A DNA stretch of 64,000 nucleotides, taken from positions 62,001-126,000 of the forward strand of contig CAMAPO010000002.1 in assembly GCA_945860245.1 (NCBI GenBank). Direction: 5' to 3'. Origin of the DNA: Bifidobacterium breve (GTDB lineage Bacteria > Actinomycetota > Actinomycetes > Nanopelagicales > Nanopelagicaceae). The notes under the pieces were generated by a model. That model did not search any database and was not told the origin of the DNA. It saw only the letters and a list, made by a program, of their open reading frames with translations. Position 1 is the stretch's first letter; each line of letters begins with the position of its first letter. A program made the translations under genes and the position numbers. Positions 27,265 to 30,465 of the stretch are shown here, in pieces.

Positions 27265-27654
27265 ATGAGCAAGTTGGCTAGAACAGGGCGCAGCTGTTCG
27301 CGAGTTAGTTGTAGAAGTCTGGCTTCTATGACTCTGACTTACATTTATTCAGACTCAACCGCAGTGCTTGGCCCTTTAGCAACCTTTTCTGAACCTCACT
27401 CATACGATCTATGTGAAGTGCATGGTAAGCGCCTCACCGTTCCTAATGGTTGGAATGTAATTAAAGAAGAGAGTTCTCTGACAGATATTGGACCAAGTGA
27501 GGACGATTTGATGGCGATCGCCGATGCAGTGCGTGAAGTAGCCAATTTGAATATGTCTCCTGACGGTTCTAACGCCGCAAGCACAGTTAAAAGCGCGAGT
27601 AGCCAAGAAGGACAGATTGGTCGCCGCGGCCACTTGCGGGCGGTTCCCTCTTAA
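27265..27654 (+). CDS. DUF3499 family protein
   Basis: CSRVSCRSLASMTLTYIYSDSTAVLGPLATFSEPHSYDLCEVHGKRLTVPNGWNV. Confidence 0.9.
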   Translation: MSKLARTGRSCSRVSCRSLASMTLTYIYSDSTAVLGPLATFSEPHSYDLCEVHGKRLTVPNGWNVIKEESSLTDIGPSEDDLMAIADAVREVANLNMSPDGSNAASTVKSASSQEGQIGRRGHLRAVPS

Positions 27655-27702
27655 AATTATTCTGGATTAGTAAAATTGCTTGGCTAAAGAGAGAAGCGGA
27701 AT

Positions 27703-29049
27703 ATTTCAATATTTAAGGCGTACGACATTCGCGGATTAGTTGATGTAGAAATTACCGCCGATTTTACCTTTGCTACAGGTGTGGCATTTGCGCGTTTTCT
27801 ACAACAAGAACGCGAACCCGGAACAGTTGTCATCGGTGAAGATATGCGCCAATCATCGCCATCATTTGCAGATGCTTTTTCTGCAGGCGTTACATCGCAA
27901 GGCTTAAATGTAATTCGCATCGGTTTAGCATCTACGGATCTGCTTTATTTTGCAGCCGGAGAATTGAATTTTCCTGGGGCAATGTTCACAGCTAGCCATA
28001 ATCCAGCTGAATATAACGGCATAAAATTATGCTTAAGCGGTGCTCGGCCAATTGGTAAAGAATCTGGACTTCTGGCTATTGAAAGATATGTAACTGAAGG
28101 TTCCCCAATTGACTTTAGAAGCGTCGGCAAAGAACGCAGTGAAGATATGTTAACTGCCTACGTTGATCACCTACTAAGCCTCGTAGATTTATCTGAAATC
28201 CGTCCGCTGAAGATAGTGATTGATGCCGGAAATGGAATGGCTGGACATACTGCCCCGGCAGTCTTTGCTCGCTTAAATTGCGAAGTAATCCCAATGTATT
28301 TTGAATTAGATGGCACCTTCCCCAATCACGAAGCGAATCCGATTGATCCTAAGAACCTTAAAGATCTTCAGAATGCGGTTAAGAAACATAAAGCTGATAT
28401 TGGCCTTGCCTTCGATGGCGACGCCGATCGCTGTTTCTTAGTGGATGAAAATAGTGAATTAGTAAATCCTTCCATCCTTACTGCCTTAATCGCTGATCGC
28501 GAGTTAAAGAAAAACCCTGGTGCAAATATAATTTACAATTTAATTTCTTCTCGTGCGGTCGCAGAGATTGTTGAAGAGCGTGGTGGCAAAGCGATCAGAT
28601 CAAGAGTAGGACATTCTTATATAAAGAAATTGATGGCAGAAACTGGAGCGGTATTCGGTGGTGAGCATTCAGGTCATTTCTATTTTAAAGATTTTTGGCG
28701 CGCTGATTCTGGAATGCTGGCAGCTCTGCATGCAATTGCAGCGCTCGGGGAAGTAAATACTCCGCTCTCCAAATTATTGAAACCTTATAGTCGCTATGTA
28801 TCTAGTGGTGAAATCAACTCGGAAGTTGCTGACTCACAAATATCAATGTCAGCGGTTGAAGCAAAATTTGGAGTAAGTGCCGGCAATGAGGTGGATCACC
28901 TCGATGGCTTGACGGTTAATGGTGATACTTGGTGGTTTAATGTCCGCGCTTCCAATACCGAACCACTATTACGTTTAAATGTAGAAGCCAAGACGCAAGC
29001 GCTCATGGAAAAGATTCGAGATGAGGTGCTCGCCACAATCCGTGGCTAG
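27703..29049 (+). CDS. manB: Phosphomannomutase/phosphoglucomutase; conserved N-terminus requires an AUU start at 27703 (track starts at GTG 27781)
   Basis: In-frame upstream sequence ATT TCA ATA TTT AAG GCG TAC GAC ATT CGC GGA (..SIFKAYDIRG) is the conserved N-terminus; ASHNPAEYNGIK active site; FDGDADRC metal loop; in-frame TAA at 27685-27687 with no ATG/GTG/TTG before 27781. Confidence 0.85.
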   Translation: MSIFKAYDIRGLVDVEITADFTFATGVAFARFLQQEREPGTVVIGEDMRQSSPSFADAFSAGVTSQGLNVIRIGLASTDLLYFAAGELNFPGAMFTASHNPAEYNGIKLCLSGARPIGKESGLLAIERYVTEGSPIDFRSVGKERSEDMLTAYVDHLLSLVDLSEIRPLKIVIDAGNGMAGHTAPAVFARLNCEVIPMYFELDGTFPNHEANPIDPKNLKDLQNAVKKHKADIGLAFDGDADRCFLVDENSELVNPSILTALIADRELKKNPGANIIYNLISSRAVAEIVEERGGKAIRSRVGHSYIKKLMAETGAVFGGEHSGHFYFKDFWRADSGMLAALHAIAALGEVNTPLSKLLKPYSRYVSSGEINSEVADSQISMSAVEAKFGVSAGNEVDHLDGLTVNGDTWWFNVRASNTEPLLRLNVEAKTQALMEKIRDEVLATIRG

Positions 29050-29178
29050 CGTCTAAATAGCCAGTAAGGGTCGGTGGGCGCTAACCTATGCACAGAGCCG
29101 CCTAGCAAAGTAGAGCCCTACGCCTTAGGTAAGCACAGTCCAATCAACTGTTATTTATTACCAATTAAGGAGAACACC
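29050..29178 (+). other. Possible structured 5' leader of sahH
   Basis: 129 nt between manB stop and sahH ATG; complementary segments ACCTA/TAGGT enclosing GTAG-AGCC-CTAC hairpin; no known riboswitch core recognised. Confidence 0.3.
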
Positions 29179-30465
29179 ATGAATTCACCAGTCACATCAA
29201 CACTTCCACGTCATGATATTGCAGATGCATCACTTGCCGCAGAAGGTCGCAAGAAGATCGAATGGGCAGAACGTAATATGCCTGTGCTCGCGCAGATCCG
29301 TGAACGCTTCGAGAAGTCACAGCCATTTACCGGCGTAAGAATCGCTGCTTGCATGCATGTGACAACCGAGACGGCTAACTTGATGCGTGTCCTAAAAGCA
29401 GGGGGCGCAGAAATTGCTCTCTGTGCATCAAATCCACTTTCAACTCAAGATGACACAGCGGCAGCGCTGGTTCACGAATACGGAATTTCAGTATTTGCGC
29501 GCAACGCAGTTGATCGTGATGGTTACTACTCACATATAAATGCGGCACTAGATATCGAACCTCACCAAGTATTTGATGATGGCTGCGACCTCGTCAACAC
29601 TCTTCACACAACTCGTAAAGAACTCCTTCCAAATATCGCCGGTGGTTGCGAAGAAACCACAACTGGTGTAATTCGTCTCAACCAAATGGCAAAAGATGGC
29701 GCACTTACATTCCCAATGATTGCTGTCAATGACACCGATACCAAGCACATGTTCGACAATCGTTACGGAACAGGTCAATCAACGCTCGACGCTGTCTTTC
29801 GTGCGACAAACTTCCTTCTTGCCGGACGCATCGTCGTAGTAGCAGGATTTGGTTACTGCGGTAAGGGCGTTGCAGAACGCGCTAAGGGTATGGGCGCTGA
29901 TGTTGTTGTTACCGAAATCGATCCAACTAAGGCCCTTGATGCCATGATGCAAGGCTTCCGAGTCATGCCAATGCTTGAAGCTGCAAAAGTTGGAGATGTA
30001 TTTATTACTGTTACGGGAAATCGTGATGTATTGCGAGATGAGCACTTTGCGGTGATGAAGGATGGCGCAATTATGGCTAACTCTGGACACTTCGATATTG
30101 AAATCGACGTCGCTTGGTTGGAGCAGAACGCAAAGAAGAAGAATGCCAAGATGCGCCATCAAACTGACGAATATGTGCTGGGCGATGGACGCCGCTTGCT
30201 ACTTCTTGCAGAAGGTCGCTTAGTTAACCTAGGCGCAGCCGAAGGTCACCCGGCATCAGTGATGGATATGTCATTCTCTGATCAAGCGCTGACTGCAGAA
30301 TATCTAGTAAAGGAAGCGAAGAACCTTCCAGCAGGTGTTCATAACGTTCCAACTTATATCGATAAAGAAGTTGCTAGCCTGAAGTTAATCTCTATGGGTG
30401 GCCGTATCGATACCTTAACTCCAGCACAAGATATGTACTTGAACTCTTGGGAGCACGGTAGCTAA
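29179..30465 (+). CDS. sahH: S-adenosylhomocysteine hydrolase
   Basis: RBS aaggag then ATG 29179; [61 protein letters not shown]. Confidence 0.95.

Follow-up and report, generated by a model that had tools for sequence, protein, structure and literature searches.

Comparative evidence for an AUU start codon in the phosphomannomutase/phosphoglucomutase gene manB of the Planktophila clade

The phosphomannomutase/phosphoglucomutase gene manB of the Planktophila clade is very probably translated from an AUU codon, a reading that we base on comparison of the gene among its relatives. The gene was studied in a 64-kb window, the whole stretch of DNA analysed, which is part of contig 2 of a 1.39 Mb genome in 47 contigs. 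The host genome falls in the genus that includes Candidatus Planktophila lacus (order Nanopelagicales, acI Actinomycetota), bacteria that are abundant in freshwater. The relevant features of the window are the following:

27265..27654, + strand: upstream gene, DUF3499 (PF12005, 144 bits), with its stop 48 nt upstream of the manB AUU
27685..27687, + strand: in-frame TAA stop just upstream, read from the sequence
27688..27696, + strand: Shine-Dalgarno-like AGAGAGAAG, with a register of 4-5 nt to ATT and moderate pairing; GAAGGA in the P. lacus group
27703..27705, + strand: predicted AUU start codon of manB, where conservation begins; ATT in 17/17 clade species, ATG at the equivalent codon of the nearest outgroup
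27703..29049, + strand: predicted manB CDS, phosphomannomutase/phosphoglucomutase of 448 residues (NF007088, four PGM_PMM domains)
27781..27783, + strand: GTG, first canonical codon of the manB frame, rejected as start; not conserved in the clade and truncates domain I

The open frame of manB extends from 27688 to 29049, and when it is read from AUU 27703 the four-domain PGM_PMM architecture of the product is complete. The protein scores 703 bits against NF007088, the PMM/PGM equivalog (PRK09542) with a curated cut-off of 618. As the two other relatives encoded in the host genome are GlmM and a larger hexose mutase, manB is the sole PMM/PGM-equivalog gene found there. A DUF5719 gene and a glycosyltransferase gene lie further upstream, and ahcY, mtrA and mtrB lie downstream, the last two named by sequence and gene order only. 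For ahcY, the mechanical ORF begins at GTG 29074, but the true start is likely ATG 29179, which AAGGAG precedes (window 29074-29181). The DUF3499 gene and manB are in the same frame in the window, which fits the idea of a ManB produced as a fusion protein by readthrough from DUF3499; however, this would require readthrough of two stops, and the spacing between the two genes changes frame between species, making a fusion scarcely conceivable.

The preliminary description of this DNA, made from the sequence alone, had reported that the TAA at 27685-27687 is followed by no in-frame ATG, GTG or TTG until GTG 27781, and that a purine-rich AGAGAG precedes the ATT at 27703. Both statements were confirmed, the AGAGAG lying at 27688-27693, 9 nt before the ATT. 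It had also placed the conserved protein N-terminus upstream of GTG 27781 and held that a start at that codon would cut into domain I. These claims were borne out by the PGM_PMM_I match and by the 17 clade species: read from ATT 27703, the match starts at profile position 3 and scores 119 bits, whereas a start at GTG 27781 would drop profile positions 3-27 and lower the score to 97 bits. As no canonical codon precedes it in the frame, GTG 27781 would be the choice of an automatic caller, and translation could be thought to begin there, or at whichever canonical codon comes first in each species, giving an enzyme without its N-terminus. However, the first canonical codon of the frame varies in position by species (residue 12, 13, 27, 33 or 48), the stretch upstream of it is under coding constraint (6, 1 and 22 changes at codon positions 1, 2 and 3, respectively), and the shortened protein would lack an AYDIRG motif whose counterpart in solved PMM/PGM structures is at the N-terminus, so that a canonical start is very unlikely. 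The Tyr and Arg residues of this motif contact the substrate in the P. aeruginosa PMM/PGM.

Start codons were compared across the genus and beyond. The genus search returned a match in 134 of 135 genomes, although in a few the match was to a paralogue or covered just a fragment. A further 80 loci came from scanning named genomes. Start codons were read in the loci cut out; the partial G124 gene (81% identity) stands outside the counts. Among 96 distinct homologous proteins the start codon is ATG in 68, GTG in 10, TTG in one and ATT in 17. The ATT group comprises 17 clade species (the window and 16 others), all of which carry ATT at the exact start codon, preceded by an in-frame stop and no canonical start, and followed by TCA or CCA and then ATH TTT AAR GCN TAY GAY. 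Outside the clade, none of the 79 distinct homologues has ATT and all use ATG, GTG or TTG, a distribution that is more than chance. The 17 ATT proteins form one group in the tree, although the exact node has weak support (0.46); the node that joins this group to two ATG relatives has a support of 0.92. In one of these two relatives, the nearest outgroup (G030, loci L020/L059), ATG occupies the very codon at which the clade has ATT, and one G-to-T change thus explains the origin of the ATT. The AUU start proposed in the preliminary description is supported both by the 17 ATT codons and by this ATG.

The preliminary description had also allowed that an indel, whether an assembly or a sequencing error, might mask an ordinary start codon that lies out of frame, such as TTG 27680. 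The window does come from a draft assembly of 47 contigs. However, the out-of-frame TTG 27680 is not conserved, and ATT together with the missing canonical start is common to all 17 species, including the complete genomes G003 (P. lacus MMS-21-148, NZ_CP016769), G004, G005 and G012 (IMCC26103, CP015604). Because independent assemblies, complete chromosomes among them, share the ATT, an assembly error is excluded for practical purposes, and we regard an indel as extremely improbable.

Conservation was also compared codon by codon around the start. Codons -1 and -2 before the ATT vary freely in the clade: only 6 to 12 of the 17 species share the commonest base at each of positions -6 to -1. Codon 1, in contrast, is the same throughout. 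Elsewhere in manB, a single codon is invariant at just 1 of 22 other invariant Ile positions in the same species; with an empirical chance of 1 in 22, part of the ATT conservation could be inertia. The next near-cognate codon, ATA 27709 (27709-27711), was named in the preliminary description as the other rare option, and it resembles the ATT in being an in-frame AUH codon followed by the conserved FKAYDIRG. However, this third codon is ATA in only 12 of the 17 species and ATC or ATT in the other five, it would stand at a Shine-Dalgarno register of 11 rather than 5, and it is 27703 that the nearest relative's ATG matches in the alignment. A start at ATA 27709 is accordingly very unlikely, much as is one at a canonical codon, and AUU 27703 remains the favoured start.

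The leader of manB offers a putative ribosome-binding site in register with the ATT. In G012, the 16S gene terminates with CACCTCCTTTCT, and the two kinds of leader that occur in the clade, AGAGAGAAG and AAGGAA, both put the anti-Shine-Dalgarno sequence 4-5 nt from the ATT (six leaders tested); among 713 Shine-Dalgarno-bearing genes of G012 the commonest register is 5. The pairing energy at manB is -6.1 to -7.1 kcal/mol, which about 30% of genes equal or better and which 4 to 8% of random positions reach. Thus, the manB site is ordinary and not extended, unlike the strong sites of the staphylococcal type. Folding of the start region gave no conserved RNA structure (4 pairs, no compensatory change; z = 0.75). 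A TANNNT hexamer such as TTTACGATAGCCATATG ends 5-8 nt before the start codon at 24 of the 76 loci whose start is not ATT, which suggests a leaderless mRNA. Leaderless initiation depends strongly on AUG, and a weak AUU could therefore have been acquired more easily in a lineage whose manB has a leader and a Shine-Dalgarno sequence. Among the ATG relatives, TTTACGAT was observed just upstream of manB in L021, L022, L029, L032, L033 and others, ending about 6 nt before the ATG, and it points to a -10 box and leaderless mRNA in the ATG lineages.

To place manB among the genes of the clade, two complete clade genomes (G012 whole; G003 bases 1-1,200,000) were scanned for genes whose coding conservation reaches upstream of all their canonical starts, giving 1,035 scored orthologue pairs in a scan that detects only upstream extensions of at least 8 codons. 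Of 107 raw candidates, clear coding conservation was found only for manB, infC and recX. The strongest case is manB, with the changes given above spread over 51 codons, followed by infC (39 codons; 1, 1 and 9 changes at positions 1, 2 and 3) and by recX, the third clear case outside other genes (29 codons; 1, 1 and 8 changes). The remaining raw candidates lay in rRNA or tRNA, overlapped a neighbouring gene, or were extensions whose length or bias was insufficient for a judgement. In the host genome, infC starts at ATC after AAGGA (L142, G000:C5:69072 onward) and its product has the IF3 domains; the ATC is kept in the genus and in most class members read. An AUC start of infC is already known, and infC therefore serves as a positive control of the scan. 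The coordinates of recX are as follows:

L187:7153-7665 (G012:C1:807153-807665), and G000:C1:766-1295 in the host genome, outside the window: recX, with no canonical start near the N-terminus

The frame of recX opens at the stop codon of recA, with which the near-cognate codon overlaps, as TAATT (AUU) or, in G012, as TAATC (AUC). Of the genus genomes, 56 have the junction pattern, the host genome among them; one exact TAATG junction pattern matched none of the 135 genus genomes, and five outgroup genomes have TAATTTCA in place of TAATTAGC at the junction. The first canonical recX codon is residue 30 in G012 and residue 61 in G003, and the first RecX domain starts at residue 22, so that the canonical codons fall inside or behind that domain. 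The start of recX is thus likely an AUU coupled to recA termination.

Near-cognate starts are known from infC, the autoregulated gene for IF3, which starts at AUU in E. coli and AUA in S. aureus. In Streptomyces, infC has an AUC start and the GTC start of sigR is repressed by IF3 (PMC5472188). The AUU of staphylococcal cvfC1 and the AUA of ccpN are conserved across related species, have extended and strong Shine-Dalgarno sequences and reduce yield (PMC13009471), and the AUU start of E. coli pcnB limits expression (Binns and Masters 2002, as cited in PMC13009471). Both infC and manB have a conserved near-cognate start with a Shine-Dalgarno sequence in the same genome; however, infC encodes autoregulated IF3, whereas ManB is an enzyme of metabolism, and only one clade has the AUU in its gene. 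The pcnB gene shares with manB an AUU start outside infC, but it is an unrelated gene of another phylum whose expression limit is known, while that of manB is only surmised. Like manB, sigR comes from Actinobacteria and has a conserved non-canonical start that annotation overlooked, but it encodes a sigma factor, its codon is GTC rather than ATT, and its repression by IF3 is established, where for manB such repression would follow by analogy. Finally, cvfC1 and ccpN resemble manB in having a non-canonical start with a Shine-Dalgarno sequence conserved across related species, and differ in that the sequence is extended and strong in Staphylococcus and of ordinary strength at manB. As in the IF3-regulated cases, the host genome encodes IF3, and its own infC start is near-cognate.

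By analogy with infC, pcnB, sigR and cvfC1, the AUU may limit ManB synthesis under IF3 control. The AUU very probably arose once, most simply by the G-to-T change in an ATG at the same codon, and has been kept since. The Shine-Dalgarno sequence, in its optimal register, very probably positions the ribosome at the AUU, which initiator tRNA would read as formyl-Met. In the proposed scheme, IF3 would reject the near-cognate AUU more often than AUG, the weak codon would hold ManB synthesis down to a set level, and low IF3 activity would let output increase, as happens with infC itself. Whether the AUU carries regulatory meaning, which the preliminary description called usual for AUU starts, is close to an even question, which we answer with a slight leaning towards yes. 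The competing explanation is that the start, although real, is a nearly neutral change kept because demand for ManB is low. The genomes are small, the Shine-Dalgarno sequence is not unusually strong and the start has no conserved RNA structure, and this explanation has a substantial, somewhat smaller than even, chance of being right; however, ATT is kept in 17 species though ATG is one step away, and known AUU, AUC, AUA and GUC starts are mostly regulatory (PMC5472188, PMC13009471).

Our literature searches found no paper on Planktophila and start codons, and, among the papers listed on phosphomannomutase together with non-canonical starts, no description of the manB AUU. The manB AUU adds a new case to the known class of conserved near-cognate (AUH) starts. 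Few bacterial AUU-start genes are documented, and here a housekeeping enzyme appears to have it fixed across a whole clade of bacteria that are very abundant in freshwater. Depending on the clade member, a caller restricted to ATG, GTG and TTG would cut 11 to 47 residues from ManB; the case also illustrates that comparison alone can reveal near-cognate starts. More speculatively, and with rather low probability, manB, infC and recX may form a small near-cognate-start set through which IF3 activity jointly sets IF3, RecX and mannose-1-phosphate supply; if true, initiation fidelity would be linked to cell-surface sugar metabolism. With close relatives that have ATG at the same codon, the clade provides a natural experiment on what weak starts cost and how they are used.
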